A program made the position numbers and the translations under genes. 64,000 bases of DNA, from positions 38,908,035 through 38,972,034 of the forward strand of contig OZ025256.1 of assembly GCA_964019135.1 (NCBI GenBank). The letters are read 5' to 3'. This stretch comes from Arenicola marina. Lineage: Eukaryota; Annelida; Polychaeta; Arenicolidae. Numbering within the stretch: the stretch's first letter is position 1; every line of letters begins with the position of its first letter. Shown here one piece after another: positions 2,092-60,390 of the stretch. The notes beneath the pieces were generated by a model, which saw only the letters and a list, made by a program, of their open reading frames with translations, did no database searches and was not told the origin of the DNA.

Positions 2092-5000
2092 ATCATGCCA
2101 CTGCCGACAGCCCATGGTTGATGCCACTGCCGGCAGCCCATGGTTGATGCCACTGCCGACAGCCCATGGTTGATGCCACTGCCGGCAGCCCATGGTTGAT
2201 GCCACTGCCGACAGCCCATGTTTGATGCCACTGCCGGCAGCCCATGGTTGATGCCACTGCCGACAGCCCATGGTTGATGCCACTGCCGACAGCCCATGGT
2301 TGATGCCACTGCCGACAGCCCATGGTTGATGCCACTGCCGGCAGCCCATGGTTGATGCCACTGCCGACAGCCCATGGTTGATGCCACTGCCGACAGCCCA
2401 TGGTTGATGCCACTGCCGACAGCCCATGGTTGATGCCACTGCCGACAGCCATGGTTGATGCCACTGCCGGCAGCCCATGGTTGATGCCACTGCCGACAGC
2501 CCATGGTTGATGCCACTGCCGACAGCCATGGTTGATGCCACTGCCGGCAGCCCATGGTTGATGCCACTGCCGACAGCCCATGGTTGATGCCACTGCCGAC
2601 AGCCCATGGTTGATGCCACTGCCGACAGCCCATGGTTGATGCCACTGCCGACAGCCATGGTTGATGCCACTGCCGGCAGCCCATGGTTGATGCCACTGCC
2701 GACAGCTCATGGTTGATGCCACTGCCGACAGCCCATGGTTGATGCCACTGCCGACAGCCCATGGTTGATGCCACTGCCGACAGCCATGGTTGATGCCACT
2801 GCCGGCAGCCCATGGTTGATGCCACTGCCGACAGCCATGGTTGATGCCACTGCCGGCAGCCCATGGTTGATGCCACTGCCGACAGCCCATGGTTGATGCC
2901 ACTGCCGACAGCCATGGTTGATGCCACTGCCGGCAGCCCATGGTTGATGCCACTGCCGACAGCCCATGGTTGATGCCACTGCCGACAGCCCATGGTTGAT
3001 GCCACTGCCGACAGCCCATGGTTGATGCCACTGCCGACAGCCATGGTTGATGCCACTGCCGGCAGCCCATGGTTGATGCCACTGCCGGCAGCCCATGGTT
3101 GATGCCACTGCCGACAGCCCATGGTTGATGCCACTGCCGGCAGCCCATGGTTGATGCCACTGCCGACAGCCCATGGTTGATGCCACTGCCGACAGCCCAT
3201 GGTTGATGCCACTGCCGGCAGCCCATGGTTGATGCCACTGCCGGCAGCCCATGGTTGATGCCACTGCCGGCAGCCCATGGTTGATGCCACTGCCGACAGC
3301 CCATGGTTGATGCCACTGCCGGCAGCCCATGGTTGATGCCACTGCCGACAGCCCATGGTTGATGCCACTGCCGACAGCCCATGGTTGATGCCACTGCCGA
3401 CAGCCCATGGTTGATGCCACTGCCGACAGCCATGGTTGATGCCACTGCCGGCAGCCCATGGTTGATGCCACTGCCGACAGCCCATGGTTGATGCCACTGC
3501 CGACAGCCATGGTTGATGCCACTGCCGGCAGCCCATGGTTGATGCCACTGCCGACAGCCCATGGTTGATGCCACTGCCGACAGCCCATGGTTGATGCCAC
3601 TGCCGACAGCCCATGGTTGATGTCACTGCCGACAGCCATGGTTGATGCCACTGCCGGCAGCCCATGGTTGATGCCACTGCCGCCAGCTCATGGTTGATGC
3701 CACTGCCGACAGCCCATGGTTGATGCCACTGCCGACAGCCCATGGTTGATGCCACTGCCGACAGCCATGGTTGATGCCACTGCCGGCAGCCCATGGTTGA
3801 TGCCACTGCCGACAGCCCATGGTTGATGCCACTGCCGGCAGCCCATGGTTGATGCCACTGCCGACAGCCCATGGTTGATGCCACTGCCGACAGCCATGGT
3901 TGATGCCACTGCCGGCAGCCCATGGTTGATGCCACTGCCGACAGCCCATGGTTGATGCCACTGCCGACAGCCCATGGTTGATGCCACTGCCGACAGCCCA
4001 TGGTTGATGCCACTGCCGACAGCCATGGTTGATGCCACTGCCGGCAGCCCATGGTTGATGCCACTGCCGGCAGCCCATGGTTGATGCCACTGCCGACAGC
4101 CCATGGTTGATGCCACTGCCGGCAGCCCATGGTTGATGCCACTGCCGACAGCCCATGGTTGATGCCACTGCCGACAGCCCATGGTTGATGCCACTGCCGG
4201 CAGCCCATGGTTGATGCCACTGCCGGCAGCCCATGGTTGATGCCACTGCCGGCAGCCCATGGTTGATGCTACTGCCGACAGCCCATGGTTGATGCCACTG
4301 CCGGCAGCCCATGGTTGATGCCACTGCCGACAGCCCATGGTTGATGCCACTGCCGACAGCCCATGGTTGATGCCACTGCCGGCAGCCCATGGTTGATGCC
4401 ACTGCCGGCAGCCCATGGTTGATGCCACTGCCGACAGCCCATGGTTGATGCCACTGCCGGCAGCCCATGGTTGATGCCACTGCCGACAGCTCATGGTTGA
4501 TGCCACTGCCGACAGCCCATGGTTGATGCCACTGCCGACAGCCCATGGTTGATGCCACTGCCGACAGCCCATGGTTGATGCCACTGCCGACAGCCCATGG
4601 TTAATGCCACTGCCGACAGCCCATGGTTGATGCCACTGCCGACAGCCCATGGTTGATGCCACTGCCGACAGCCCATGGTTGATGCCACTGCCGACAGCCC
4701 ATGGTTAATGCCACTGCCGACAGCCCATGGTTGATGCCACTGCCGACAGCCCATGGTTGATGCCACTGCCGACAGCCCATGGTTGATGCCACTGCCGACA
4801 GCCCATGGTTGATGCCACTGCCGACAGCCCATGGTTGATGCCACTGCCGACAGCCCATGGTTGATGCCACTGCCGACAGCCCATGGTTGATGCCACTGCC
4901 GGCAGCCCATGGTTGATGCCACTGCCGACAGCCCATGGTTGATGCCACTGCCGACAGCCCATGGTTGATGCCACTGCCGGCAGCCCATGGTTGATGCCAC

Positions 5001-5208
5001 TGCCGACAGCCCATGGTTGATGCCACTGCCGACAGCCCATGGTTGATGCCACTGCCGGCAGCCCATGGTTGATGCCACTGCCGACAGCCCATGGTTGATG
5101 CCACTGCCGGCAGCCCATGGTTGATGCCACTGCCGACAGCCCATGGTTGATGCCACTGCCGGCAGCCCATGGTTGATGCCACTGCCGACAGCCCATGGTT
5201 GATGCCAA
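2092..5208. repeat. 26-bp minisatellite, about 120 units
   Basis: The unit is TGCCACTGCCGACAGCCCAT followed by GGTTGA. Two main variants occur (GACAG and GGCAG), and many units are 25 bp through loss of one C in the CCC. The variants recur in larger blocks, suggesting higher-order duplication. The minus strand of the unit has no stop in any frame, so long open frames (such as repeats of GCRQWHQPW and SGINHGL) arise automatically. I read it as non-coding. Confidence 0.97.
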
Positions 5209-6782: not shown

Positions 6783-7078
6783 GTGGCTGGCGGACCCGCG
6801 GGCGGACCCGCGGGCTGGCTGGCGGCTGGCTGGCGGGCGGGTTGGCTGGCTCGCTGGCTGGCTGGCTGGCGGGCTGGCTGGCGGTCTGGCTGGCGGCTGG
6901 CTGGCGGGCTGACTGGCTGCCTGGCTGGCAGTCTGACTGGCGGTCTGGCTGGCGGGCAGTCTGGCTGGCGGTCTGGCTGGCGGGCTGGCTGGTGGTCTGG
7001 CTGGCGATCTGGCTGGTGGGCTTGCTGGCTGGTGGGCTGGCTGGCGGGCTGGCTGGTGGTCTGGCTGGCGGCTGGCTG

Positions 7079-7124
<46 letters not shown>

Positions 7125-7558
7125 GGGATGGCTGGTGGTCTGGCTGGCGGCTGGCTGGCGGGCGGGATGGCTGGTGGTCTGGCTGGCGGCTGGCTGGCTG
7201 GCTGGCTGGCTGGCGGGCTGGCTGGTGGTCTGGCTGGCGGCTGGCTGGCGGGCGGGATGGCTGGTGGTCTGGCTGGCGGCTGGCTGGCTGGCTGGCTGGC
7301 TGGCGGGCTGGCTGGTGGTCTGGCTGGCTAGCGGGCTGGCTGGCGGTCTGGCTGGCGGCTGGCTGGCTGGCGGTCTGAATGGATGGCTGGCTGGCTGGCT
7401 GGCTGGCTAGCTGGCGGTCTGGCTGGTGGTCTGGCTGGCGGCTGGCTGGCTGGCGGGATGGCTGGTGGTCTGGCTGGCGGCTGGCTGGCTTGCTGGCTGG
7501 CTGGCTGGCTGGCTTGCTGGCTGGCGGGCTGGCTGGTGGTTTGGCTGGCGGCTGGCTG

Positions 7559-7596
<38 letters not shown>

Positions 7597-7756
7597 GGGA
7601 TGGCTGGTGGTCTGGCTGGCGGCTGGCTGGCGGGCAGTCTGGCTGGCGGTCTGGCTGGCGGGGTGGCTGGTGGTCTGGCTGGCGATCTGGCTGGTGGGCT
7701 TGCTGGCTGGCTTGCTGGCTGGCGGGCTGGCTGGTGGTCTGGCTGGCGGCTGGCTG

Positions 7757-7798
<42 letters not shown>

Positions 7799-8262
7799 GG
7801 GATGGCTGGTGGTCTGGCTGGTGGCTGGCTGGCGGGCGGGATGGCTGGTGGTCTGGCTGGCGGCTGGCTGGCTGGCTGGCTGGCTGGCGGGCTGGCTGGT
7901 GGTCTGGCTGGCGGCTGGCTGGCGGGCGGGATTGCTGGTGGTCTGGCTGGCGGCTGGCCGGCTGGCTGGCTGGCTGGCTGGCGGGCTGGCTGGTGGTCTG
8001 GCTGGCGGCTGGCTGGCGGGCTGACAGGTGGTCTGGCTGGCGGCTGGCTGGCGTCTGGCTGGCTAGCGGGCTGGCTGGCGGTCTGGCTGGCGGCTGGCTG
8101 GCTGGCTGGCTGACTGGCTGGCGGTCTGAATGGATGGCTGGCTGGCTGGCTGGCTGGCTAGCTGGCGGTCTGGCTGGTGGTCTTGCTGGCGGCTGGCTGG
8201 CTGGCGGGATGCCTGGTGGTCTGGCTGGCGGCTGGCTGGCTGGCTGGCTGGCTGGCTAGCGG
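6783..8262. repeat. 1.5-kb GGCT/CTGG compound array
   Basis: An almost pure run of GGCTGGCT tetranucleotides, punctuated by GGCGG, GGTGGTCT and GGATGG. Longer blocks recur: the word around CAGTCTGGCTGGCGGTCTGG appears near 6958 and again near 7636, and a block starting ATGGATGGCTGG appears near 7380 and 8131. There are therefore kilobase-scale internal duplications. Trp/Ala/Gly-rich frames through it are by-products of the repeat. Confidence 0.95.
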
Positions 8263-16309: not shown

Positions 16310-17190
16310 CCTCCTCCCACGGTCGTTTTGTCGGTTTTGGTGTTTTTGTATTCGTAATTACTATTATAATGGGGTCTCATTACTTACCTCGTTTCGTGGG
16401 TTTGGGTGTTTTTTTTTATTCGCATCCCGCAGCCATAATTACTATTATAATGAGGTCTCACTACTTACCTCATGGGTGCAGTGGCGGATCTCATAACCAC
16501 CCCCCCCCCCCCCTTGGGCACCAGAACATACAACATACATGTTAACATACATGTTAAAGTTCCATGTCTTCAGAGACTTTCCCCTTGGGAAAATGAACAT
16601 ACACTGTTAAAGTCGGGTTCTCCAAGCCCAAGCCCCCCACATGTTAGTGTAAACCTACCCTTAGCAGCCCCCCGCCCTCCCCTCCACTCCCCATCATCCT
16701 CCTGCGTCTACCCTCCACCATTGATCAGCTTTATTTACTGGGAGGCACGACCGGTTAGAACCAGAAACTGTCGCTTTTTTCCGCTTGTCAAAGCAAGCAG
16801 CGAATGAGGTATAATAGTGTCTTGTTGATGGTATATTTCGAACACTCAGATGCCATATAACATCAAACAATGAACGTTCATTGCAAGAATTGTTTACTTT
16901 ACGGAATCCACTTCTCCTATTATAAGGACTCGAGACCATCGTTCACCCGGAAATACTATGTCTAAGCAGGTTAGTGATTTTACGTCAAACTTGATTTGTT
17001 CTTACGCGGAGGCGCAAAGATAATAATCTTTGGCGGAGGTGAATAGATACTACATACCTGGGGCTCAGTGTTATATCCTATTGGTGAGTCATGTCAGTGT
17101 CAGTGTAAGATCTGTAAGCTCGGACAGCGTAAGCGGTAAATTCTCATTCATCAACCCAATAGCAATGCCACAGTGTCTAACGCTTGTAAC
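16310..17190 (+). repeat. Local duplicon module, copy A
   Basis: Contains a tandemly doubled segment (16320-16470, words TTTTGGTGTTTTT and ATTACTATTATAATGRGGTC), a C-rich stretch with CTGCGTCTACCCTCCACCAT near 16700, and the conserved block with ATGTCTAAGCAG|GTTAGT at 16958-16975. It runs directly into the 30-bp minisatellite. Copy B (22485-22970) has the same order without the array. Confidence 0.8.
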
Positions 17191-20100
17191 TGACATGGTG
17201 CATGGTAGACCCGATGTAACTGACATGGTGCATGGTAGACCCGATGTAACTGACATGGTGCATGGTAGACCCGATGTAACTGACACGGTGTATGGTAGAC
17301 CCGATGTAACTGACATGGTATATGGTAGACCCGATGTAACTGACATGGTGTATGGTAGACCCGATGTAACTGACATGGTATATGGTAGACCCGATGTAAC
17401 TGACATGGTGTATGGTAGGCCCGATGTAACTGACATGGTGTATGGTAGACCCAATGTAACTGACATGGTGTATGGTAGACCCGATGTAACTGACATGGTG
17501 TATGGTAGACCCGATGTAACTGACATGGTGTATGGTAGACCTGATGTAACTGACATGGTGCATGGTAGACCCGATGTAACTGACATGGTGTATGGTAGAC
17601 CCGATGTAACTGACATGGTATATGGTAGACCCGATGTAACTGACATGGTGTATGGTAGACCCGATGTAACTGACATGGTGTATGGTAGACCCGATGTAAC
17701 TGACATGGTATATGGTAGACCCGATGTAACTGACATGGTGTATGGTAGACCCGATGTAACTGACATGGTATATGGTAGACCCGATGTAACTGACATGGTG
17801 TATGGTAGACCCGATGTAACTGACATGGTATATGGTAGATCCGATGTAACTGACATGGTGTATGGTAGGCCCGATGTAACTGACATGGTGTATGGTAGAC
17901 CCGATGTAACTGACATGGTGTATGGTAGACCCGATGTAACTGACATGGTGTATGGTAGACCCGATGTAACTGACATGGTGCATGGTAGACCTGATGTAAC
18001 TGACATGGTGTATGGTAGACCCGATGTAACTGACATGGTATATGGTAGACCCGATGTAACTGACATGGTGCATGGTAGACCCGATGTAACTGACATGGTG
18101 TATGGTAGACCCGATGTAACTGACATGGTGTATGGTAGACCCGATGTAACTGACATGGTATATGGTAGACCCGATGTAACTGACATGGTGTATGGTAGAC
18201 CCGATGTAACTGACATGGTGTATGGTAGACCCGATGTAACTGACATGGTGTATGGTAGACCCGATGTAACTGACATGGTGTATGGTAGACCCGATGTAAC
18301 TGACATGGTGTATGGTAGACCCGATGTAACTGACATGGTGTATGGTAGACCCGATGTAACTGACATGGTGTATGGTAGACCCGATGTATCTGACATGGTA
18401 TATGGTAGACCCGATGTAACTGACATGGTGTATGGTAGACCCGATGTAACTGACATGGTGTATGGTAGACCCGATGTAACTGACACGGTGTATGGCAGAC
18501 CCGATGTAACTGACATGGTAAATGGCAGACCCGATGTAACTGACATGGTGTATGGTAGACCCGATGTAACTGACATGGTGTATGGTAGACCCGATGTAAC
18601 TGACATGGTGTATGGTAGACCCGATGTAACTGACATGGTGTATGGTAGACCCGATGTAACTGACATGGTGTATGGTAGACCCGATGTAACTGACATGGTA
18701 TATGGTAGACTCGATGTAACTGACATGGTATATGGTAGACCCGATGTAACTGACATGATGTATGGTAGACCCGATGTAACTGACATGGTGCATGGTAGAC
18801 CCGATGTAACTGACATGGTGCATGGTAGACCCGATGTAACTGACATGGTGTATGGTAGACCCGATGTAACTGACATGGTATATGATAGACCCGATGTAAC
18901 TGACATGGTGTATGGTAGGCCCGATGTAACTGACATGGTGTATGGTAGACCCGATGTAACTGACATGGTGTATGGTAGACCCGATGTAACTGATATGGTG
19001 TATGGTAGACCCGATGTAACTGACATGGTGTATGGTAGACCCGATGTAACTGACATGGTATATGGTAGACCCGATGTAACTGACATGGTGTATGGTAGAT
19101 CCGATGTAACTGACATGGTATATGGTAGACCCGATGTAACTGACATGGTGCATGGTAGACCCGATGTAACTGACATGGTGTATGGTAGACCCGATGTAAC
19201 TGACATGGTGTATGGTAGACCCGATGTAACTGACATGGTGTATGGTAGACCCGATGTAACTGACATGGTGTATGGTAGACCCGATGTAACTGACATGGTG
19301 TATGGTAGACCCGATGTAACTGACATGGTATATGGTAGACCCGATGTAACTGACATGGTGCATGGTAGACCCGATGTAACTGACATGGTATATGGTAGAC
19401 CCGATGTAACTGACATGGTATATGGTAGACCCGATGTAACTGACATGGTGTATGGTAGACCCGATGTAACTGACATGGTATATGGTAGACCCGATGTAAC
19501 TGACATGGTATATGGTAGACCCGATGTAACTGACATGGTGTATGGTAGACCCGATGTAACTGACATGGTGTATGGTAGACCCGATGTAACTGACATGGTG
19601 TATGGTAGACCCGATGTAACTGACATGGTATATGGTAGACCCGATGTAACTGACATGGTACATGGTAGACCCGATGTAACTGACATGGTATATGGTAGAC
19701 CCGATGTAACTGACATGGTATATGGTAGACCCGATGTAACTGACATGGTGCATGGTAGACCCGATGTAACTGACATGGTATATGGTAGACCCGATGTAAC
19801 TGACATGGTGCATGGTAGACCCGATGTAACTGACATGGTATATGGTAGACCCGATGTAACTGACATGGTGCATGGTAGACCCGATGTAACTGACATGGTG
19901 TATGGTAGACCCGATGTAACTGACATGGTGTATGGTAGACCCGATGTAACTGACATGGTGTATGGTAGACCCGATGTAACTGACATGGTGTATGGTAAAC
20001 CCGACGTAACTGACATGGTATATGGTAGACCCGATGTAACTGACATGGTGTATGGTAGACCCGATGTAACTGACATGGTGTATTGTAGACCAGATGTAAC

Positions 20101-22046
20101 TGACATGGTGTATGGTAGACCCGATGTAACTGACATGGTATATGGTAGACCCGATGTAACTGACATGGTGTATGGTAGACCCGATGTAACTGACATGGTG
20201 TATGGTAGACCCGATGTAACTGACATGGTACATGGTAGACCCGATGTAACTGACATGGTATATGGTAGACCCGATGTAACTGACATGGTATATGGTAGAC
20301 CCGATGTAACTGACATGGTGCATGGTAGACCCGATGTAACTGACATGGTATATGGTAGACCCGATGTAACTGACATGGTGCATGGTAGACCCGATGTAAC
20401 TGACATGGTGTATGGTAGACCCGATGTAACTGACATGGTGTATGGTAGACCCGATGTAACTGACATGGTGTATGGTAGACCCGATGTAACTGACATGGTA
20501 TATGGTAGACCCGATGTAACTGACATGGTATATGGTAGACCCGATGTAACTGACATGGTGTATGGTAGACCCGATGTAACTGACATGGTATATGGTAGAC
20601 CCGATGTAACTGACATGGTGTATGGTAGACCCGATGTAACTGACATGGTGTATGGTAGACCCGATGTAACTGACATGGTGTATGGTAGACCCGATGTAAC
20701 TGACATGGTGTATGGTAGACCCGATGTAACTGACATGGTGTATGGTAGACCCGATGTAACTGACATGGTGTATGGTAGACCCGATGTAACTGACATGGTG
20801 TATGGTAGACCCGATGTAACTGACATGGTGTATGGTAGACCCGATGTAACTGACATGGTATATGGTAGACCCGATGTAACTGACATGGTATATGGTAGAC
20901 CCGATGTAACTGACATGGTGTATGGTAGACCCGATGTAACTGACATGGTGTATGGTAGACCCGATGTAACTGACATGGTGTATGGTAGACCCGATGTAAC
21001 TGACATGGTGCATGGTAGACCCGATGTAACTGACATGGTGTATGGTAGACCCGATGTAACTGACATGGTGCATGGTAGACCCGATGTAACTGACATGGTG
21101 TATGGTAGACCCGATGTAACTGACATGGTGTATGGTAGACCCGATGTAACTGACATGGTGTATGGTAGACCCGATGTAACTGACATGGTGTATGGTAGAC
21201 CCGATGTAACTGACATGGTGTATGGTAGACCCGATGTAACTGACATGGTGCATGGTAGACCCGATGTAACTGACATGGTGTATGGTAGACCCGATGCAAC
21301 TGACATGGTGCATGGTAGACCCGATGTAACTGACATGGTGTATGGTAGACCCGATGTAACTGACATGGTGCATGGTAGACCCGATGTAACTGACATGGTA
21401 TATGGTAGACCCGATGTAACTGACATGGTGTATGGTAGACCCGATGTAACTGACATGGTGTATGGTAGACCCGATGTAACTGACATGGTGCATGGTAGAC
21501 CCGATGTAACTGACATGGTGCATGGTAGACCCGATGTAACTGACATGGTGTATGGTAGACCCGATGTAACTGACATGGTGTATGGTAGACCCGATGTAAC
21601 TGACATGGTGTATGGTAGACCCGATGTAACTGACATGGTATATGGTAGACCCGATGTAACTGACATGGTGTATGGTAGACCCGATGTAACTGACATGGTG
21701 CATGGTAGACCCGATGTAACTGACATGGTGCATGGTAGACCCGACGTAACTGACATGGTATATGGTAGACCCGATGTAACTGACATGGTGTATGGTAGAC
21801 CCGATGTAACTGACATGGTGCATGGTAGACCCGATGTAACTGACATGGTGCATGGTAGACCCAATGTAACTGACATGGTGTATGGTAGACCCGATGTAAC
21901 TGACATGGTGTATGGTAGACCCGATGTAACTGACATGGTGTATGGTAGACCCGATGTAACTGACATGGTGTATGGTAGACCCGATGTAACTGACATGGTG
22001 TATGGTAGACCCGATGTAACTGACATGGTGTATGGTAGACCCGATG
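17191..22046. repeat. 30-bp minisatellite, about 162 units with no length change
   Basis: The unit is TGACATGGTGTATGGTAGAC followed by CCGATGTAAC. Every unit over 4.86 kb is exactly 30 bp. Most variation sits at two adjacent positions (GTG/GTA and TAT/CAT). A plus-strand frame (17030-22051) reads TDMVYGRPDV repeats, and minus-strand frames are open too, as expected for a stop-free unit whose length is a multiple of three. The putative start at 17030 is not conserved in module copies B and C, and rare variants change amino acids freely, so I do not call it coding. Confidence 0.97.
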
Positions 22047-22109
22047 TGTGATCTGTAAAACATACTTTTATGACGGCGTACAACTTACCTCCTGATGAGT
22101 CGGTCATTT

Positions 22110-26196: not shown

Positions 26197-29100
26197 GTGA
26201 GAGTGCGCTCGGTCCGGCTAGCTTGATATAATTAACGTTTTATACTTCTCTACATTACAATCCTCACTTGAAATCATTGTTTAATACATAATTTGCATAG
26301 ATAATGGAATAATTACTTAATTAGATATTTACGATTTGGTGTAGCCTGGTATAAGCCTCTGATGTTATAAGCATATGAAAGAGTTTCGTGTTCGTAATAT
26401 TTAATATCCATGTAATTTTTCTATAACCATACATGTTATAATTAAGTATTAAATCGTATGATTTGCCATGCTACGGTAGTATATGTGTTCCTAACAGTTT
26501 CATTATTCCTAACATTGTCCTTATTCTTAACATGTTCCTTATTCCAACCATTGTCCTTATTCTTAACATGTTCCTTATTCTTAACATTTGCCTTATTCTT
26601 AGCATTGTCCTTATTCTTAACATTGTCCTTATTTTAACATTGTCCTTATTCTTAACATTGTCCTTATTCTTAACATTGTCCTTAACATTGTTCTTATTCT
26701 TAACATTGTCCTTATTCTTAACATTGTTCTTATTCTAAACATTGTCCTTATTCTTAACATGTTCCTTATTCTTAACATGTTCCTTATTCTTAACATTGTC
26801 CTTATTCTTAGCATTGTCCATATTCTTAACATGTTCCTTATTCTTAACATTGTCCTTATTCTTAACATGTTCCTTATTCTTAACATGTTCCTTATTCTTA
26901 ACCAGTATGAAAGTTAATGTTCCACTTTCCTGACTCACCAGCAAATGGAGGAATAAAGTACATTTATTCATTCATTCATTAATATCGACGTCTATTGCCC
27001 ATGGATGTATCGTTCTTAACATGAATTGTGCTGCGAGGAGATTTTGAGGCATGTTTTGACAAGATGACGCATGAAGTAACCCCCCCCCCCCTCCCTTCTC
27101 TCGCCTCCCACCAGGTGCCTTCCTCATCCCGTACGCCCTTCTGAACGCCTTCATTGGCTTTCCGTTGATCTTCCTGGAGTATTCCTTCGGCCAGTATGGC
27201 GGCCAGGGACCCATCTCTATTTGGAAGGCATGTCCTATCTTCGAAGGTGGGTGGGCACTCTAATCCTATGCCTTGAGGACAGGCAAAAATCGGACAGTGC
27301 CCATCTGCAGAGCGGGCCCGAGTTTTGCCCGCTCTTGAGCCATAGGATTAGCTAAGGCTTGTTGATGTATCAGCCCTCATCTGTTTTTTCCAAGCAAACT
27401 CTCAAATGTAAATGATGTATTTACTTGTGATTTATAACAATGAAAGTAAACTGCGAATGTGGACTAGATATCCAGGAATTAAAATTTACCGATATTTTAC
27501 TCTTCAGAAACGTCTAAATGTTTAAACTGTTTGATGGTTTTTCTTTGTGACTTTTGATCTTGACATTGACCTTGAACCTGACCGTGACCTTTGACCCCGG
27601 CAGGCATCGGCTGGATCATGTTCACTGTGTCATTCTTCGTGTCCATCTACTACATCGTCATCATCTCCTGGTGCTTCTTCTACATCTTCGCCTCCTTCTC
27701 CAGCCACGTGCCCTGGGCCACGTGCGGCAATTGGTGGAACACGGCCAGTAAGTACCGACACTTTCAGTAAGTACCGACCCCGTCAGTAAGTACCGACCCC
27801 GTCAGTGAATACTGGGAGCTGTCGGTAAGTAATGAGCGCTGTCAGTAAGTACCGACCCCGTCAGTAAGTATCGACCCCGTCAGTAAGTACTGACCCCGTC
27901 AGTAAGTATCGGCCCCTTCAGTACGTACTGGGAGCTGTCAGTAAGTAATGGGCGCTGTCAGTTAGTACCGACAACGTCTGACCGTGTCAGTAAGTACAGG
28001 ACGCGTCAGTAAGTATACATAGCTGTCAGTAAGTACAGGACGCGTCAGTAAGTACACAGAGCTGTCAGTAAGTACTGAACCGTGTGAGTTAGTACCGATC
28101 CTGTCAGTAAGTACCAATCCCGTCAGTAAGTACCTGCCCCGTCAGTAAGAACTGAGCGCTGTCAGTTAGCACTGAGCGCTGTCAGCAAGTACTGAGCGCT
28201 GTCAGTAATTCAGGACGCTGTTAGTAATGACACAGAGCTGTCAATAAATACTGGGTGCTTTCAGTAAGTACTGGTTGCTTTCAATAAGTACAGGGTGCTG
28301 TCAGTTAGTACTGAGTTCCGTCCGTAAGTGCACGGAGCTGTCAGTAAATACCCTTACCGACCTTGTCAGTAAGTACAGGACGCTGTCAGTAAGTGCCCAG
28401 AGCTGTTTGTAAGTGCCTAGACCTGTCAGTGAGCACCCAGAGCTGTCAGTAAGTGCCGATAACTGTCAGCAATTTTTGAACCCTGTCAGTAAGTGTGAAA
28501 CATCTCCAGTTAGAGAAGAACTGTCAAAAAGCTTGTCAGGCACTGTCAGCAAGTACGCACCACGACCAGTAACCGTGAGGCAGTTCACGGTTTAATATCG
28601 TGCTACATGCATGTCATCTTTGCTTATGGCTTTCATATGACGGTTCACGTGTTCTATCTCTGTCCTCCACAGACTGCAGTGTGTCATTTGCGACCACCAA
28701 CAGCAGCCTGGGACTCAATGAAACCTTGCTTGGCACTGCAGCGCCATCTACGGACATGGCGAATGGAACCATGACCTTTGCACCCGTATCACCCAGCGAC
28801 GAATACTTCCAGTGAGTCTGAACCACTGTTTACCAATATAAGAGTTACCTTTCCATAAGTTTAGTGAAACACACCTGTTTATGAAAATGAGTCCTATCTG
28901 TATGGACGCTGAGTTGAATCTCGGTTGAATTGAGTTGAAAGTTCAGGAGGATTTGCACGTGGTCACTCAATATGGCGAATGTGGCTTTCTATAGTCACTG
29001 CTGTCATTATCAGTGATTATTGGTTGGTCTTGTCCAGAGGGTTTTGTTCTGTTTGATGAATTTCGTCATTCATGTATTACAGGTACTGTATTACATATTG

Positions 29101-44552: not shown

Positions 44553-45359
44553 TCAGTCGCAGCCGGAGTCGAGCAGCAAGTACTCCAGAACCTTCCCTGG
44601 GAGCGGCAATCTCTGGATCCGGCTTCGCGGTCTCGGGCTGATCCGGTGCCGAATGGACATCCGGCAGAGGTCGTGCAGGGGAGCGGGATTCTCGAACCGC
44701 GCCACGATCCAGGCGGCCAGGTCCGGATCCTGCTCCAACCTCGGCGACCACACCGACCTGTCCAGGATCCCATCCCTAACCGGAAGCGGAAGTCGACATC
44801 CGGCGTGAATCAGCATTTTGGCGACCATGGGGTCGTGGGAGAGGGCGGCCACAAGGGCGGTCAGGCCGGTGTTACCGGCCAGGTCACAGTCGCACCCCGC
44901 CTGGACGAGCGCCGTCGCCACCTGGCGGTCGCCTTTGAAGGCTGCGGTGATGAGCGGGGTCAGGCCCCACACGTCCCGCGTGTTTAGGTCGGCTCCAGCA
45001 GCGATGAGCCGCTCCACCATGGCAAGATGGCCGCCGTCCACCGCCTTGAACAGCGGTGTCTTGTGCTCCTCATTCTCCACGCTGATGGGGTCGATGGCGC
45101 AGCCGTTGCTTAGCAACACGTCGGCCACGCGGCGCGCGTTACGCATGGCGCACACGTGCAGCGTCGTCCTCCCATTAGCCATCGCCGCGTCCACGTCAGC
45201 GCCAGCCTCCAACAGCGCATGCGCCACGTGCGGGTGACCTCCGTTTGGCCCGAAGGCCGCTAGGTGGAGCGGTCGGATGCCCGAGCTGGAGACAATTCTC
45301 TTTCGTCCTCTGTCCGAGCGCTTTAGAGCGTCGGGCTTGACACCGGCCCCGAGGAACAT
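44553..45359 (-). CDS. ASB-like gene exon 4 (ankyrin repeats 5-10, SOCS box)
   Basis: Acceptor TGTTGCAG on the minus strand, phase 0. It starts MFLGAGVKPDALKRS, completing the repeat begun in exon 3. Open frame further upstream (to 45455) is intron and SINE sequence and is not part of the gene. Confidence 0.95.
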   Translation of the reverse strand: MFLGAGVKPDALKRSDRGRKRIVSSSGIRPLHLAAFGPNGGHPHVAHALLEAGADVDAAMANGRTTLHVCAMRNARRVADVLLSNGCAIDPISVENEEHKTPLFKAVDGGHLAMVERLIAAGADLNTRDVWGLTPLITAAFKGDRQVATALVQAGCDCDLAGNTGLTALVAALSHDPMVAKMLIHAGCRLPLPVRDGILDRSVWSPRLEQDPDLAAWIVARFENPAPLHDLCRMSIRHRISPRPRSRIQRLPLPGKVLEYLLLDSGCD

Positions 45360-48300
45360 CTGCAACAGACAGACAGGTACAATATATTCAGGACGCTTTA
45401 ACCACTTTTGATCATATCGCGTCAATGGGAGGAGGAAGAGGGAGAGTGGAGCCATGTCCCCGGGGGTAACCCCCTACTCTTTGCGAAAAACATGGCCACA
45501 GCGGGGCTCGAACCATCGATCAACGTGCCGTAAGGCTCTCAGGTGGCCTTGGCCCGGTTCCACGAACGGACTTAACTTAAGTCTGTTTTCCGACTTAAGT
45601 TTTGAGGTGTCTGACTTAACTAAGACTTTTGAAAAGACGCGTTCCACGAAGCGACTTAAGTCCGGACTTAAGTAAGTCCAACTTACAAAGTGGGTTTCAC
45701 CCACAGGGTTCTGAGTTTGCATTTTAGAAGTGTTGCGCCGGAAACGCTCTTCACAATGTGCGGGTCAAATGAGGTAGAAATGTGGTATTATATGTAAATA
45801 TTCAACACCGAACGTCTTCTCACTTCCGTTACTATGGAAACATGCCAATGAACATTTGGCGCGGTATTTCACGCATTTAGCAGTTGAACATTAATTGTTG
45901 AAGTGTCTTCAAGTTCAAGTGATGGAAACAATAACGGTAAGTTTTCTCAGTTTGAAAGTGTATCTTAGCTTGAACACAGGCGCCGTAAATCAGCGGGGGG
46001 GGGGGGGTGGTGGGGGGGGGGGCGCTTCACCTAGGAGGTAGGCCTTCACCATGTTCACTGGGGCTGGGCTACATATATTCACCAGCCCCCACTCCCCTGT
46101 CACAAATTTCTCACATAACAGATTCTGCACTTGGATAGTACCTCACACGTACCCCCCACCCCCCCACCAGGTCAACATTTCTCACTGGATATTACCAAAT
46201 AGTACTTGACTGGATAAACAAATTGTGCCCCCCCCCCCGCCTTTTCATAAATTTCTGGATCCACCACAGATATATATATATATATATATATAGGTCTATA
46301 AATAAAATAACATTCATTAATGCTTGAACTGTTCAATGAACACTTAGTATTTGTTTAATAAATAAGCTTAGTTTATATGTTTCCTCATTTTAAAATAGAA
46401 AATATGGGGATGATCGAGTTATTAGATAGAATCTTTATTGTCATGGATAGTTATATTTTGACAGTTATCTGCCTTTTCCTTCCAAGGCCATTATGGAAAA
46501 CAAATTTGTGTTTACTCAATTAACCTTCTTTGAGGCAGAACAAAAATATTTAAACTAAGCTTACTACAAAAGTGATCCCCCCACTTCATTCTGCTGTCTA
46601 TAACTATAGGCGATTTAAGTAAGCTTATCTCTTAAACTAAAGGTTCACATTCATCTGAATATGCTGAATACATCACGGTGCATGAATTTGAAAACCAGAA
46701 AGATCAGCAAGTTTACTCCTCATTCAATGGGGTAAGATAAAGTAATTTACATGGAAGATGGTCTTTTAAATTGCACATTTCTATTTGCAGACTTTTGTGA
46801 ATAACAGTAAAGATGGCCAACTGGACGCCACAGGAGTTGAAAGTTCTGTTTTGGAATGTTGACAAGCATCTCCCCATTATTGATGTTCCTCAATAATTTT
46901 AAACACATGCATATTCCAGTCCTGTATAGACAAGACTATTGTAAAAAATATCCTTTAAGCTTACCACAATGACATTCTTTCATAAATTTACTTAGATATA
47001 TATTTACTTGCTATAGCTAGGCCCCTGGGCGAATGGGCGCTGATGGTGATGGTAATGATATTATATTAATTTACTCCTGTCATTATTATTCAATCCAGGG
47101 CTTTTCTTTTCTTGTTATAATTATCTTAATGTAATGTAAAAGATGTACCATAGAAACATCATTGTGCATAAATATTATTGACCTTTAATTGCAATGTAGA
47201 TTTTTTTTTTTTTAAGTGGGTGACTCATTGGTCTTATGTGTTTTGACTTTTGTGAATTTTGTGTATTACTTGCACTTACCTCAATCGTAATAGGCACCTT
47301 CAGCTGAAGCTGGGTCAGAATAAGGGGTTTACATTTGTTTATATTTGTTATTTAGTTGTATGGCAGAATTTATGTACATATATAAACAGTAAAATAAATA
47401 ACACAAACTGGACATATGGGTGTTGTTCAATTTCAAGGAGAAAACTGACAGCGCATGCCAGGCGAAAGAATCCTTACAGTACAGTTGTTCTCAATTAGAC
47501 TTGTGTTACATGTTTGCAAAGGATTTTTTGCTGGATTTGTTTTAAAACTAATTTTTATTTATGGCAAGGGTGCATTATGACATGAAATCATTTATTTATC
47601 TTGTTGTTCCGAGAGTCTGCAGGTTATTGCGCTCAAACACATACCAAACCTAACACCATTAATGGGAGAACACTGGCCAAATTTAATAAACGGTGGGCCA
47701 CGGTGTCTTATTGACTACCAAGGCCTGCATATAAAGTAAACTTGCACCAGGTGGGGGAATTAGCAACCGGTCAACATGGAATACATATATATATATTCAT
47801 ATCTACCAGTACCTGTATGTTTAAGAAGTAAACAAATGACATACTGTCATATACAGAATTTGTCAACAGATTTGCGCGTAAGATATCTTAATCAGGTACA
47901 AAAAGAGCTTTTAACAACATGCCATTATAATTATTGTTCCATAGATGTTTTATTTAAATAAAAAGGACCTAAATACATTGGTCCATTCAATATTAATCAT
48001 GGGTATCAAATAATAACAATATTATATTTTTGACAATGTACCATTTAGTATCAGAATTACAGAGGAACCCTAAAAAAAATACTCAATCATGTCATAGGCT
48101 AATATATATCTGTAGATCTACATTTAATAAACATATAAATGAATTATTTGGGTGCATTGAAAACACCATTAAATATTTTTTAGGGAAATATGCTGCATGT
48201 AAAGTTTAAATCTTGGAGGTCTAGCTGACTTCGTTTGCCATTTAGGTGACACCTATCCATATTAATATTGGTAATGAAATGGTATTACTTACTTATAGAT

Positions 48301-51300
48301 AAATAAAAAATTTACATTAAAAAAGAGAGGGTGATCAATTGGCCAATTTAGTGTCACCTGGTGTTACAAAGTGAATGAATCTTTATAGAGGCTGTTCATG
48401 TGTCTGACTGTGACTCTCGCTGTGATCGTGAGTCGACAGAGGTCACAGTGTCAGTTTGTACGACAGTAGCAGTGTGCAGCCTGCACTATATTGACTACTA
48501 GTGTAGGTGTCAGTGACTGTCACTGTCAGTGACACTGACGAGTGAAGACTGAAGTGTAGACGGTGATCTGTCAGTGTCAGTGAGGCTGTCATGCATGCAG
48601 ACAGTGTCAGTGAGGCTGTCATGCATGCAGACAGTGTCATCACGATTTATTGTTAACAATAGACGCTTATCACAACCACATACTCTCACTGACTGTCCTC
48701 ACTGACCCAATGGCAATAAACCAGTCGCAGTGCCCCTTTCATAGCCTGCTGCAACACTGACACTGTCGGTCTGTTTAGCGTTGTCTGTCAGTGGGTGCGT
48801 GAGCGATAATGCAAGAGTCATGGCGCATCGAGTCAAATTTGTATTGTGACTCACCCAGTTTTCAAGGGTCAGTGGGCATAATCATGACACTTAATTTGCT
48901 ATGTGCGCATTTAAAATATTACATTAATGCCAGCGTTTCATTGGAAAAAACCAAGAAAATCGTAGATTGTTGGTCCCGAAGCGCGAAACTCAAATACCAC
49001 ACATTGACTGTCGGGTGGCGCTGCGGTCGGCTTGGTGCGTTACAACGGCTGAGCGGGCCCTTTGCCAACTTAACTGCTTAAGTCACCTACCAAGCAGACT
49101 TAGAAAGTTAAGTCAGTCGTCAGCGGCATCAGACTTAAGTTCTATCGTGGAACGCATTTGAAGGGGCATGGACTTAACTTAAGTCAAAACTTAGGATTTA
49201 AGTCAGAAAACGGACTTAAGTTCGTTCGTGGAACCGGGCCCAGAGCACTCAATGCGAGCGCTCTAACCCACTGAGCTACCGGGCCGGCCCCGGGGTAACT
49301 ACAAGAGTCCCTGCTGCAATGTACAGTAACTGTAGCTGTACAAACAGGAGCGCCTTATGCAATATGCACAGGCATATGGCATTTCACCACAGGCGTTTTT
49401 GTGGACTTTTTCAATAGTTTCAATTCATTCTTGAGTCACGCCATGTCTTATTGCGGTATTTATAAAACACAACATTTAATATTCCCAGTTGAAATTCATG
49501 TAACTCATGGGCATCCGATACCTGTCCGTCCCATCTGAACAGAAATAGATTTAACATAACTGGGGCCAAAACGAGACAGATTTCATCCGGGAGAGCGCAG
49601 ATACTACACATTATATCCCTGTCAACAGGGAGTCACATGCACCCCAACGATAGGCTGACGACAGATGTCAGAGAAAAACATGTGAGGGCGGGTTTTCATG
49701 ATCGTTTATGCTGTTAAAGTGGTTCATTTTTATAATGATTTTGGCCACAGTTAAAGGAAGCCGCCAGCCTGGCTTCTAACGCTGCTTTACCGATTCATAA
49801 AATACCTAAGTGACTATCCTTCAAATTACAGAATTTTCCGTCCTGTCTGTAGCTAACAATAAAGTTAGAAGTGACCACCATCCACGATTTCGTCGTTTAA
49901 ACAGGCGGCAGCCCTTTTTTGGGGGGTGTCCGCGATTGACCAATCACAAGGCGATACTCTAATTATATGCAAACCGGAAATAACGCCAACTGTGTGAGCA
50001 AAACAAGAGCGCATGATCATGGCTCATATAAATAACTCTAATCATGTTTTTTTTACGGAGACAATCGTTGCAAGATATATATCAATATTTTTAGATGCTA
50101 TTTTTCCATGAAACACTAAAATCAGGGTCTACAGCGCGGCTTGGAACTGCCACAATTCGTCTGTAAATCGCGATAACTTCCAGTTACATCGTAAGGCGGC
50201 GGCATCTGAAAGCTCACAATATACGTCGCTTGCTCCGGCACAATGGCGCGCGGCTCGACGTCAATGGGGGCGGGTTGCCTTAATTTATTTCTTTTTACCA
50301 GTCGGCCTAAACAAAGCGTTAACAATAGCCAATTTAATTTTAAGATGTCAACTTTCGGTGCAGATCGCGATTATACTAGTTTGGACACCCGCTTTAACAT
50401 TGAAAGCATGATGAGTACGCCACCTTGAGAAGCTTCATGTTGCCCTTGGCAGCAGCCATGTGGAGGGCTGAATCGCCGCCGTTGTTGGTGAGATGGACGT
50501 CACTTCCTGCCCCGATTAGCTCCAGAACTTTCTGTCCCTCCCCTGTCTTGGCGTGGTAGACTGCCTCCAGCAGGGCAGAGTTACCTGAAGGCAGCACCGT
50601 CAGGGGTTTTACCTTTAGACGAGGCTCTACAATGGTGTCTGGAGCGGTCCGTAATATTTATTATAGTGCATATTGCGCCGTTCACAAAGAGATATGGCTT
50701 ATGATTGGTAAAGCCAACGTATTAATGCTCGGCATGCATCCGGCTACTCGTTAACCTTAACAGAAACAGTAAGTTTACCATTGACACCAGTAGAGCTTAC
50801 TATTGGCACCAGTAGAGGTTACCACTGACACCAGTAGAACTTACCATTGGCACCAGTAGAGTTCACCATTGACACCAGTAGAGCTTACCATTGGCACCAG
50901 TACAGCTTACCATTGACACCAGTACAGCTTACCATTGGCACCAATACAGCTTACCATTGACACCAGTAGAGCTTACCATTGGCACCAGTAGAGGTTTCCA
51001 CTGACACCAGTAGAACTTACCATTGGCACCAGTAGAGTTCACCATTGACACCAGTAGAGCTTACCATTGGCACCAGTACAGCTTACCATTGACACCAGTA
51101 CAGCTTACCATTGGCACTAATACAGCTTACCATTGACACCAGTAGAGCTTACCATTGGCACCAGTAGAGGTTACCACTGACACCAGTAGAACTTACCATT
51201 GGCACCAGTAAAGCTTACCATTGGCACCAATAGGGGTTATCATTGACAACAGTACAGCTTACCATTGACACCAGTAGAGCTTACCATTGGCACCAGTAGA

Positions 51301-54015
51301 GCTTACCATTGGCACCAGCAGAGGTTACTATTGACACCAGTACAGCTTACCATTGACAACAGTACAGCTTACCATTGGCACCAGTAGAGGTTACCACTGA
51401 CACCAGTAGAACTTACCATTGGCACCAGCAGAGCTGGCCACTGGCACCAGTGGAGTTTACCATTGACAACAGTACAGCTTACCATTGACACCAGTACTGC
51501 TTACCATTGAAAACAGTACAGCCTATTACTGCCACCTGTACAGCTTACCACTGACACCATGGTGTAGATTGAGCTTACCCTTCCCACCAGTACAGCTTAC
51601 CATTGACATATATGAGGTTGACGTCCGCCCCCCTTGCCAGGAGCAGTCTCGGCACGTCTAGCTTATCATTGACACCGTACAGCCCACCACTGACACCAAT
51701 ACAGCTTACCATTGACACCAGTACAGCTGACCATTGACAACAGTACAGCGTATTACTGCCACCTGTACAGCTTACCACTGACACCATGGTGTAGATTGAG
51801 CTTACCCTTCCCACCAGTACAGCTTACCATTGACATATATGAGGTTGACGTCCGCCCCCCTTGCCAGGAGCAGTCTCGGCACGTCCAGCTTATCATTGAC
51901 ACCGTACAGCCCACCACTGACACCAATACAGCTTACCATTCAAACCACTTAAGCTCACATTGACACCAGTAGACCTTACCACTCCCACCAGTACAGCTTA
52001 CCATTGACACCAGTACAGCTTACCATTGACATATATGAGGTTGACGTCGGCCCCCCTCGCCAGCAGCAGTCTCAGCACGTCCAGGTTGTCGTCGCCGCGC
52101 TCCCTGGCGGCCACGCAGAGCGGGAAGGCGCCGCTGCGGCCCCCGACATTCACATCGGCTCCTCGGTCGAGCAGCAGCTCACACGCCTCAAGGTGCCCCA
52201 GCCCTACGGCCATGGCTGCGGGGAAAACAAGACGGAGGTATTGTCTCCATTGCAGGCATGGCGTGATTACATTGTAAATGTAATCGATTACGATTACTTG
52301 GAAATTTCATGATTACGATTACGATTACAAGAAATATGAAAGTAATCGATTACGATTACAGCAAATATGAAAGTAATCGATTACGATTACATTGAAAGTA
52401 ATCTTGATTACAATCATGATTACTTTCCATGTTTTTAATAAATGAGCTCTTAACTAGACCTTTAAGTAGCTATTTCAACACGCAGTAAACATTGGAAGAG
52501 CGGGGCCACACAGATTTGGCGATAACGAGTTCAGAAGCAGGCGATTCAAATACTAGCGGTTTGTATGAAGACTGGGCAGCTTGGTTGGGAGAGCGTCAGA
52601 TTTCTGATAATAGGGCTGTGCCTTCAATTCCCGACGGGAGCATTTTTTTATGGCATTTAATGAGGGTTACAACCCACGGTAATCACTTTGTGAAGAACAA
52701 CCCCCGATCGTCATAAGTTATTCTAAATATTTTAAGTTATTGAAAGCATAAGTGGAAAAGTTATATTAAATATTAACTCTAATGTAAAAGACACAAATTA
52801 TATATATTTGATACAAATTCGCTGCATTTATTCTTATCTTCCTTAGAAGGAGGTGTGGTGGGTAACAGAACTTATGTCTTCTATGTAAAGTGGCAGGTAA
52901 TAAAGGAAACCACGACGCTATAGGACTCAGGGATATCTATAGCATACATTGTCGCCCCCAGTACTGAACCCAGTCAAGTTTGTTTTATAACAACACCTTC
53001 AAATTCATCTATGCAGAGAACAATAACACAAGCATTTAACCTCATTCCATCAGGCCCCCGCCCACCCACTCCCAATAACACAGGTGGCTCTGGACCATCC
53101 CTAGTTATCCAATGCAAACAAGATTAGCATGGGATTAAGAGGTAGTCCACTTTCGGTTACCCAGCCAGCTTAATTGTTATGTCTGGTTTTGTCTCGGGTG
53201 GGACAGGAAGGACCAGAAGGGTAGGAGGGGGGGGGGGTGGTTGGGAGGGGGGCGTCTCTACAGTAGGACTGCAATGGCCAGTTTTCATTTATTATACTGG
53301 CGACATGGAAGGTGTGAAGCGCAGTTCTGAGACTGAAACAGCCCGAGTAAAAATTGTAAAGTAATCATCCAAAGTAATCATGATTACGATTACATTAGCA
53401 ATGTAATCGATTACGATTACATTGCCTTTAAAACCAATGTAATCGCTTACGATTACGATTACTTGGAAAATATAATCCATTACAATCTATTACGATTACT
53501 GATTATAATTACCCCATGCCTGCTCCATTGGTAGGATACTTGACCCTTTGTAGGTCATTTCACAACCATGGAAAGGGCCAGAGAAGAGAGGAGCCATGAC
53601 TCCAGGGGCATAATCCCTTACTCTTTGCATGGGAGCTTTATCCTAGCCAAGATTCGAACCATCAACCAGCCACTTGGGGAGGAATATCAGAGTACACTTG
53701 ACACTACACGCCAAGGCAGGAGTAATATGTGGGCTGTTCAGAAATTATGGCTCCATATGTTTACATTGAACAACCTGAGACTAAAGTTATGCATAAGACT
53801 AGAGTTATGCATCTTGCATTCCATTAGCAATAGAAGCTCAAGGGTATAAGGTACCAGATCAACAGATTCACACCTAGGGGAGAGTGCATAGAGAGCCTCA
53901 GATTTGGATCCAAGCCTTCGTCAAGCATGGACTTAATCTTGTCAATGTCATCATTCTGCAAAGCATGGTAGATTGTCTTCCCTGCCAGTATGACCGAAGC
54001 AACAACCTCTGCCAT
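44553..54015 (-). CDS. Ankyrin-repeat and SOCS-box protein (ASB-like), 4 exons, spliced
   Basis: Four minus-strand exons join in phase to 433 aa with stop TGA at 44553-44555. About ten ankyrin repeats span residues 16-370 (examples: SPLAMAVGLGHLEACELLLD, IRPLHLAAFG, KTPLFKAVDGGHLAMVERLI). A C-terminal SOCS box at about 390-429 contains a BC-box, PLHDLCRMSI, matching the Elongin B/C binding pattern, and a Cul5-box, LPLPGKVLEYL, matching the LPxP...YL pattern. By family knowledge, such proteins are substrate receptors of Cullin5-RING E3 ligases, with ankyrin repeats binding the target. The start ATG at 54015 follows a 15-nt 5' UTR piece after an acceptor, so an upstream non-coding exon is expected. 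The target and the vertebrate ASB counterpart are unknown. Confidence 0.94.
45428..45548 (-). mobile_element. SINE S1 copy, tail part (split by transposon)
   Basis: Matches 43620-43770 up to CTCTCAGGTGGCC, with a short internal deletion, and resumes at 49241 with CAGAGCACTCAATGCGAGCG. A 3.7-kb element lies between. Confidence 0.88.
45551..49240. mobile_element. 3.7-kb DNA transposon with ~100-bp terminal inverted repeats, inside a SINE
   Basis: The left end GGCCCGGTTCCACGAACGGA and the right end GTTCGTGGAACCGGGCC are inverted copies. The match continues inward for about 100 bp through ACTTAAGT-rich sequence, including CGCGTTCCACGA on the left and TCGTGGAACGC on the right. It is inserted in SINE S1 in intron 3 of the ankyrin gene. 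The interior is AT-rich, with a TA repeat at 46271-46291 and a GTCAGTGAC/CACTGTCAGTG-rich tract at 48500-48640. No transposase is recognised, so it is probably non-autonomous or decayed. The target duplication is unclear (at most 1-2 bp). Confidence 0.82.
46813..46896 (+). CDS. Short open frame in the transposon, possible Myb/SANT-like start
   Basis: Reads MANWTPQELKVLFWNVDKHL then PIIDVPQ and a stop. WTPQELKVLF resembles the first helix of Myb/SANT-like domains carried by PIF/Harbinger elements. It follows an acceptor-like TTTGCAG at 46795. Only 27 residues are open, so it may be an exon fragment or chance. Confidence 0.25.
   Translation: MANWTPQELKVLFWNVDKHLPIIDVPQ
49241..49289 (-). mobile_element. 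SINE S1 copy, head part (split by transposon)
   Basis: On the minus strand reads GGCCGGCCCGGTAGCTCAGT then GGGTTAGAGCGCTCGC, the tRNA-like 5' head that completes 45428-45548. Confidence 0.88.
49290..50423 (-). other. Remainder of ankyrin-gene intron 3
   Basis: Mixed DNA with no recognisable exon or repeat copy. Confidence 0.4.
50424..50584 (-). CDS. ASB-like gene exon 3 (ankyrin repeats 4-5)
   Basis: Minus-strand acceptor GCCTTCAG and donor GTGGCG. Encodes residues 112-165: NSALLEAVYHAKTGEGQKVL to DSALHMAAAKGNMKLLK. Phases fit exons 2 and 4. Confidence 0.94.
50769..52023 (-). repeat. 22-bp array built on the exon 2 splice donor, with duplicated exon ends
   Basis: On the minus strand the unit is GGTAAGCTGTACTGGTGTCA plus AT. 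The true junction GTCAATG|GTAAGC of exon 2 is the first unit; roughly 50 further copies follow, many keeping AATG|GTAAGC. Two partial copies of the last ~60 bp of exon 2 (51601-51660 and 51828-51887) sit inside the array with their own donor, as part of a ~227-bp duplication. They lack a clear acceptor. Confidence 0.93.
52024..52215 (-). CDS. ASB-like gene exon 2 (ankyrin repeats 2-3)
   Basis: Minus-strand acceptor CCCCGCAG and donor GTAAGC. Encodes residues 48-112: AMAVGLGHLEACELLLDRGA to LLLARGADVNLIYVNG. Joins exon 1 in phase (SPL|AMAVG). Confidence 0.95.
52253..53522. mobile_element. hAT-like non-autonomous element in intron 1 (perfect 8-bp target duplication)
   Basis: Ends CAGGCATGG and CCATGCCTG are inverted and flanked by CTCCATTG on both sides (52245-52252 and 53523-53530). 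Inside both ends are arrays of TAATCGATTACGATTACA (52255-52430, 53345-53515) that extend the inverted symmetry. A tRNA-like stretch GCAGCTTGGTTGGGAGAGCG near 52577 suggests a nested SINE head. No transposase. Confidence 0.88.
53565..53705 (-). mobile_element. Diverged SINE S1-like fragment
   Basis: On the minus strand it has GATGGTTCGAATCTTGGC (B box), GCAAAGAGTAAGGGATTATG and GGAGTCATGGCTCC, matching the S1 tail order with many changes. Confidence 0.65.
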
Positions 54016-59364: not shown

Positions 59365-60390
59365 GACTAGCCCTGTGTGTGTCACCCTGAGTCTGTCACC
59401 CTGAGTGTCTGTCACCCTGAGTCTGTCACCCTGAGTAAATGTCATCCTGAGTATCTGCGTGACCCCGCGTGTCTGTGTCACCCTGAGTGTCTGTGTCACT
59501 CTGAGTGTCTGTGTCACCCTGAGTGTCTGTGTCACCCTTAGTGTTTGTGTCACCCTGAGTGCCTGTGTCACCCTGAGTGTCTGTGTCACCCTGAGTGTCT
59601 GTGTCACCCTGAGTGTCTGTGTCACCCTGAGTGTCTGTGTCACCCTGAGTGTCTGTGTCACCCTGGGTGCCTGTGTCACCCTGAATGTCTGTGTGACCCT
59701 GAGTGTCTGTGTCACCCTGAGTGTCTGTGTCACCCTTAGTGTTTGTGTCACCCTGAGTGCCTGTTTCACCCTGAGTGTCTGTGTCACCCTGAGTGTCTGT
59801 GTCACCCTGAGTGTCTGTGTCACCCTGAGTGTCTGTGTCACCCTGAGTGCCTGTGTCACCCTGAGTGTCTGTGTGACCCTGAGTGTCTGTGTCACCCTGA
59901 GTGCCTGTGTCACCCTGAGTGTCTGTGTCACCCTGAGTGTCTGTGTCACCCTGATTGTCTGTGTCACCCCGAGTATCTGTGTCACCCTGAGTGTCTGTGT
60001 CACCTGAATGTCTTGTCACCCTGAGTGTCTGTGTCACCCTTAGTGTCTGTGTCACCCTGAGTGTCTGTGTCACTCTGAGTGTCTGTGTCACCCTGATTGT
60101 TTGTGTCACCCTGAGTGTCTGTGTCAACCTGAGTGTCTGTGTCACCCTGAGTGTCTGTGTCACCCTGATTGTCTGTGTCACCCCGAGTGTCTGTGTCACC
60201 CTGAGTGTCTGTGTCATCTGAGTGTCTTGTCACCCTTAGTGTCTGTGTCACCCTGAGTGTCTGTGTCACCCTGAGTGTCTGTGTCACCCTGAGTGTCTGT
60301 CACCCTGAGTGTCTGTGTCACCCTGAGTGTCTGTGTCCCCCTGAGTGTCTGTGTTACCCTGTGTGTCTGGTTCATCTTGGGTGTCTGTGC
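59365..60390. repeat. 18-bp minisatellite, about 56 units
   Basis: The unit is GTGTCTGTGTCACCCTGA, with GTGCCTG, TTAGTGTTTG and CTGATTG variants. Several units lack the six-base GTGTCT/TGTGTC part near 59380-59450, 60010 and 60225. The period keeps three frames open on each strand by chance. Confidence 0.97.

Follow-up and report, generated by a model that had tools for sequence, protein, structure and literature searches.

Minisatellite arrays at 5' splice sites in sampled genes of the annelid Arenicola marina

Introduction

The third intron of an SLC6 gene in the genome of Arenicola marina begins inside a tandem repeat whose first unit contains the very donor (5' splice site) at which the intron is spliced. 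Is this an accident of one intron in a repeat-rich genome, or do minisatellites prefer donors, and if so, by what route do they come to lie there? The first-pass annotation of the window (the whole 64,000-nucleotide stretch of DNA analysed here) had favoured a general process, since an ankyrin gene in the same stretch seemed to show the same arrangement. An array with an edge lying across a junction necessarily contains copies of it, and for this reason our test was placed on the positions of array edges.

Materials and methods

The genome assembly comprises 867 Mb in 762 contigs. Contig 762 (15,942 bp) is mitochondrial, with a cox1 match at 5.9e-127; in the 4 kb examined there were also matches to Proton_antipo_M (1.3e-18), which by recognition we take to be nad2, to cox2 (4.3e-63) and to cox3 (3.9e-97), together with an atp8 match (0.0046) below the cut-off of its family. 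The order is nad2-cox1-(trnN)-cox2-(trnD)-atp8-trnY-trnG-cox3, with trnN and trnD read by eye; the interval between atp8 and cox3 holds two model-found tRNAs, whose anticodons were read as GUA (Tyr) and UCC (Gly), and is devoid of atp6. This is presumably the common annelid order, and on its strength a lancelet origin was rejected.

The survey covered 30 of 98 SNF matches, 30 of 77 myosin head matches, all 13 Aldedh matches, four 10-kb stretches and the window, the three families being a non-random sample of genes. Exons were extended by homology within the survey set (264 homology clusters, 185 of them at 40 bits or more) and junctions were called by score, without RNA, using a donor matrix of human frequencies. 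The window peptides of exons 3, 7 and 8 were misframed in the homology set, and those exon ends were checked by eye. We counted 110 unique donors (score of at least 4 and 400 bp downstream) and 104 unique acceptors (score of at least 1 and 400 bp upstream). Three false donors, each covered by an array, were dropped (L010:2554, L066:1862 and L055:188), and the SLC6 paralogs L023 and L025 were merged with L022, with which they have one 36-37-bp array in common, counted once; array-covered donors thereby went from 21 of 110 to 18 of 107 and finally 16 of 105. An extra sample consisted of 20 short stretches (11 myosin, 8 SNF and one P450), so that 19 of its 20 donors come from the two larger families; four of the stretches (L082, L084, L089 and L090) overlap DNA already sampled, and none of the 20 donors had been counted before.

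Some features of the surveyed families were recorded on the way. About 45 of 97 P450 matches extend over nearly their full length within a single frame, and these genes therefore have few introns. Eleven P450 matches fall in G000:C18:9343845-10297406, ten of which have similar scores and cover profile positions 2-436 within a single open frame, apparently a cluster of intronless P450 genes. On C4 of the same genome, at 367768-371306 and 380231-383133, myosin-head matches are repeated at profile positions ~590-640 and 110-154, four each, perhaps representing alternative exons within one gene region.

Results and discussion

Two arrays in the window

The first three exons of the SLC6 gene match Pfam SNF (3e-15, 1.1e-11 and 8.3e-13, respectively). 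Its relevant features are as follows, with a slash marking the exon-intron boundary here and below.

26197-26202, plus strand: donor of SLC6 exon 1 (G/GTGAGA), without array
27115-27246, plus strand: SLC6 exon 2 (Pfam SNF), its donor at 27247 without array
27604-27747, plus strand: SLC6 exon 3 (Pfam SNF), ending TGG TGG AAC ACG GCC A/
27748-27753, plus strand: authentic 5' splice site of SLC6 intron 3 (GTAAGT), within array unit one
27746-28585 (end approximate), plus strand: putatively donor-founded minisatellite of SLC6 intron 3, 43-44 degenerate units of 19-20 bp, CA/GTAAGTACCGACCCCGT
28673-28811, plus strand: SLC6 exon 4, after CTCCACAG, placed by eye; joins to W-N-T-A-N-C-S

The donor of exon 3 had been described as unit one of a 19-bp array with about 44 copies, and so it proved, with 43-44 units of 19-20 bp running from 27746 to about 28585. 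Unit one, CA/GTAAGTACCGACACTTT, includes the real donor with its GT at 27748, and the sequence directly 3' of the exon is GTAAGTACCGAC. TRF reports period 19 for 27746-28149 and period 20 for 27985-28454. The unit had been given as starting with CCA/; its place at the donor stands, but the exonic share of the array is just CA, with copies reading (T)GTCA/GTAAGTA and the exon reading GGCCA/GTAAGTA. The array makes up ~91% of intron 3 (27748-28672), ~87 bp separate it from the exon 4 acceptor, and the GT is intact in 35 of the 41 later copies scored. Translation continued past the real donor reaches a stop codon seven residues on (SKYRHFQ stop), and use of a later copy would thus mostly yield transcripts subject to decay.

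The same arrangement, claimed for the ankyrin gene on the opposite strand, is real, as seen in the following features.

52024-52215, minus strand: ankyrin-repeat exon (Ank 1.7e-11), ending ATATATGTCAATG/
50767-52031, minus strand: putatively donor-founded 22-bp array, TGTCAATG/GTAAGCTGTACTGG, with its 5' edge 8 bp into the exon
51828-51885, minus strand: first copy, within the intron, of the terminal 58 bp of the ankyrin exon (4 mismatches), with a donor copy after it
51601-51658, minus strand: second intronic copy of the same 58 bp, likewise with 4 mismatches and a donor copy after it
44553-45473, minus strand: second ankyrin/SOCS-box exon, taken as part of the same gene

Here the exon, read from 52215 to 52024, ends at the donor ATG/GTAAGC, and 22-bp units follow it down to 50767; a 227-bp period is also listed in this array, corresponding to the two copies of the exon tail. 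Both arrays exist, therefore, although the phrase "two of two genes" overstated the case, since of the six SLC6 donors that were scored in the window just one has an array.

Minisatellites are a large part of the window. One of them (17185-22047) is a 30-bp minisatellite with 162 copies, crossed on the plus strand by a stop-free frame of 1674 aa and on the minus strand by three, of 1635-1690 aa, which all owe their length to the 30-bp period. Further arrays lie at 2095-5207 (26-bp x120), 6813-8257 (GGCT-like x367), 59374-60389 (18-bp x57), 60953-61784 (45-bp x18) and 62696-64000 (55-bp x24).

Array edges at donors and acceptors

In the sampled genes arrays favour donors, both over acceptors and over the interior of introns. 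TRF arrays lie over 16 of the 105 donors but over 4 of the 104 acceptors (Fisher p 0.008; SNF, myosin and Aldedh loci); the 16 include two weak cases of 2-3 copies (L021:582 and L049) and also the SLC6 exon 3 donor that prompted the study, and leaving aside the six donors of the window gives 15 of 99. By family, covered donors number 9 of 55 in SNF, 6 of 37 in myosin and 1 of 13 in Aldedh. Among the further donors 5 of 20 were covered; four of these extra donors scored below 4 and one was at threshold, so that the original threshold gives 4 of 16. Edges tell the same story, as 24 array 5' edges fall between -60 and +30 of donors where uniform placement in introns predicts 6.2 (0 of 5000 simulations), while acceptors have 7 edges for 6.9 expected, or 7 for 4.4 at the strictest array score (P 0.14). 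The claim that arrays at donors are frequent beyond chance thus holds for the sampled genes. GC content was considered as a cause of the enrichment and rejected, as it predicts a 1.13-fold effect at donors. Two acceptor-spanning arrays, rare in the sample, were seen in the SLC6 gene L017, at 344-915 (44-bp x13) and 1366-1535 (45-bp x3.8).

The pattern might also be an artefact or coincidence, arising from misplaced exon ends, from faults of assembly or from random overlap where repeats abound. Donors were indeed called by score and homology, and minisatellites occupy roughly one quarter of the sequence surveyed, yet SNF and myosin agree in their proportions (Aldedh having its single case), the further donors repeat the result and the edge count has a P below 1/5000, all of which makes this explanation very improbable.

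A whole-genome count of words gave a result in the opposite direction. Pairs of GTAAGT 12-29 bp apart occur at 21262 places against 26698 for the reversed word, and pairs of AGGTAAGT 12-27 bp apart at 804 places against 1203, with no excess in either case, for counts that reach periods of up to 27-29 bp, when the period exceeds 29 bp in 15 of the 18 aligned arrays. Many places in such counts come from large arrays; a single array on C2 gives most of the listed AGGTAAGT places, and places are consequently not counts of arrays.

Shape of the effect and the founding unit

Minisatellite arrays make up 26% of the sampled bases. Going from the donor into the intron, coverage is 0.20 at 0-10 bp and reaches a plateau of ~0.27 by 30-60 bp, and beyond 60 bp past donors arrays occupy ~27-37% of intron sequence. 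Going into the exon it declines across ~60-100 bp, the scale of one unit. Toward acceptors it drops from ~0.28 at 400-700 bp to 0.03-0.05 at the AG and stays low for ~250 bp.

One explanation for this profile is passive tolerance, namely that duplications arise at a uniform rate and are purged over exons and acceptors but are harmless over donors, without any seeding or selection. It predicts exactly the asymmetry between donors and acceptors, and the genesis of arrays in the intron background is certainly very high, as the coverage beyond 60 bp attests. However, tolerance cannot lift the density of 5' edges above that of the interior, and this density is about four times the expectation at donors, with GC accounting for very little of it; nor does it foresee that the donor copies diverge less than the remainder of the unit (see below). 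We regard it as rather unlikely as a full account.

The units themselves point to the junction. The donor is present in the unit consensus of all 18 aligned arrays, with the exon tail in most of them, as in the 62-bp x25 array of a myosin gene, the 100-bp x15 array of another myosin gene and a 37-bp array of SLC6; in the SLC6 exon 3 and L088 arrays, just 2-4 exon bases match beside the donor. This makes the junction itself the probable founder, and the arrays would then not have crept toward the exon from inside the intron. The GT is intact in 0.57 to 1.00 of the copies across the 18 arrays. Array edges are also crowded at 0-30 bp into the intron (9 in 3.3 kb), in most cases without a whole donor, from which it appears that position at an exon end, rather than copying of the donor, may drive the founding.

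Conservation of donor copies

We compared the donor 9-mer (-3 to +6) with the remainder of the unit across copies. Arrays with few copies were omitted (L034:4355, L021:582, L049, L066, L087, L093 and later also L073), as were L022 (rank 0.08, in favour) and L023 (rank 0.76, against), being paralogs of L025. The first-pass annotation had proposed this comparison as a check, and the donor bases are better conserved, as predicted, in 13 of 16 arrays with paralogs omitted. For complete units, counting substitutions alone and in homopolymer-free windows, the mean mid-rank of the donor 9-mer is 0.255 where 0.5 is expected (15 arrays, P 0.0001). With correction for base composition and CpG it is 0.247 (P 0.0002), donor substitutions being 0.53 of expectation. 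Once identical copies are collapsed, the donor is less divergent than its flanks in 12 of 15 arrays (p 0.007), the exceptions being those of the ankyrin gene, L034 and L081. CpG and base composition were rejected as causes, given that the effect persists after correction, and so were homopolymers, given that it persists in windows free of them.

The SLC6 and ankyrin arrays dominate the pooled per-position profile. With arrays weighted equally, divergence is low at positions -3, -1, +2, +3 and +6 but not at +4 or +5, and at two positions outside the donor, -9 and +10, it is about as low as in the donor. In arrays of the intron interior the ranks are 0.53 for a random 9-mer (n=40), 0.48 for sense donor-like 9-mers (n=9) and 0.63 for antisense ones (n=2). 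Donor-like 9-mers were found in sense in nine interior arrays and in antisense in two, and some of these control arrays may be donor arrays that went unrecognised, with the exon beyond the locus.

The reduced divergence of the donor 9-mer suggests, without proving it, that copies have retained function as U1 sites. Selection for donor redundancy might then be the main cause of the arrays, with extra U1 sites securing exon definition or suppressing premature cleavage and polyadenylation, and the footprint, absent from the few donor-like 9-mers of interior arrays, is what such selection would leave. Against this, edges are likewise crowded at 0-30 bp into the intron, ~85% of donors manage without an array, and in L022 (GTTAGT) and SLC6 exon 3 the copies have a weaker consensus donor than the authentic site. 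We consider selection unlikely as the principal cause. Of the two processes that the first-pass annotation had offered, the dense intronic edges speak for seeding by position and the conservation footprint for selection.

Age of the arrays and of their introns

The SLC6 paralogs permit the ages of arrays and introns to be compared. At the exon 3 donor the window, L014 and L030 carry arrays of unrelated periods (19, 41 and 38 bp), which indicates that arrays arose repeatedly at the same positions. At the donors of exons 1, 2 and 5 an array is present in some paralogs and absent from others that have the same introns, so that in SLC6 the introns are older and the arrays younger. These observations bear on intron gain by tandem duplication of an AGGT-bearing stretch of exon (Rogers model), in which the array would be the new intron itself. 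The units do contain AG/GT and exon copies, and such gain has been proposed for amphioxus globins and reported in a potato case. Nevertheless, the introns stand at the same positions in paralogs without arrays, the three exon 3 arrays have unrelated periods, and in SLC6, the only family to which this applies, the intron-absent parental state was not encountered. Intron gain is therefore largely refuted for the SLC6 arrays, and as an explanation of the phenomenon we hold it to be highly improbable.

A proposed origin

We consider it probable, with some reserve, that these are donor-founded minisatellites ("mirages") produced by duplication straddling the junction, to which a bias in seeding and weak selection would both contribute. 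A short tandem duplication with breakpoints on either side of the exon-intron boundary, taking in exon tail, donor and intron head (19-133 bp), would found the array, which would then grow into the intron by ordinary minisatellite expansion. Near exon ends, founding would be some four times as dense as in the intron interior. Splicing could survive because the upstream-most donor, the first to be transcribed, would be used and later copies would be plain intron; copies of an acceptor, on the other hand, would lie upstream of the true acceptor and compete with it, and arrays would be purged there. The copies may still act as U1 sites, as back-up or reinforcing donors, which would preserve the donor 9-mer in part, and the conservation reported above lends support to this step.

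The wider claim, that minisatellites are continually founded at 5' splice sites by a general process and that purifying selection maintains the donor copies they accumulate as U1 binding sites, is more doubtful, and we advance it as a tentative possibility drawn from sequence comparison. If it were true, tens of thousands of introns would have a renewable reserve of donors, an extrapolation from the roughly one donor in six observed in the sample.

Comparison with known systems

The mirage minisatellite was reportedly defined in Canestro 2002, as described in Ebner 2010, with undisturbed normal splicing and with array lengths that are unstable between haplotypes or somatic cells among its traits. 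In amphioxus, mirages have been described in Adh3, in the globins BflGb6 and BflGb9, in troponin C and in PGBD5, at both intron boundaries and, in the portions of the reports available, as single cases offered as a source of new introns (PMC3087553, PMC3902484). The arrays described here resemble them in spanning the exon-intron boundary, with units in the same range of 10-160 bp (PMC3087553, PMC3902484), and in bearing splice signals in many units, though not in all, according to the same portions. The host differs, being an annelid and not a cephalochordate, but this is a difference of taxon and does not bar the comparison. Also unlike those reports, in their available portions, we give here a rate for sampled genes (roughly one donor in six, and few acceptors) and a conservation footprint of the donor 9-mer.

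In potato RdRp, an intron is reported to have been gained by tandem duplication (PMC4974935), and the likeness is a tandem duplication across a splice boundary; unlike that case, paralogs here have introns without arrays and no new intron was seen. Earthworm metallothionein genes carry minisatellites in intron 1 (PMC12783039), and thus also represent large intronic minisatellites in annelid genes, although the available part of that source does not link them to the donor, unlike the arrays described here.

Among the matches listed in the literature searched there was no donor-founded array outside amphioxus. The phenomenon is thus already named, as mirages, in amphioxus, and its frequency and donor preference are measured here in sampled annelid genes. 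What was a curiosity of amphioxus becomes a countable and polarised phenomenon in another phylum, and natural series of arrays within one genome make it testable how one donor is chosen among dozens of near-identical copies, why tandem copies are better tolerated at donors than at acceptors, and whether duplication is targeted to the ends of exons.
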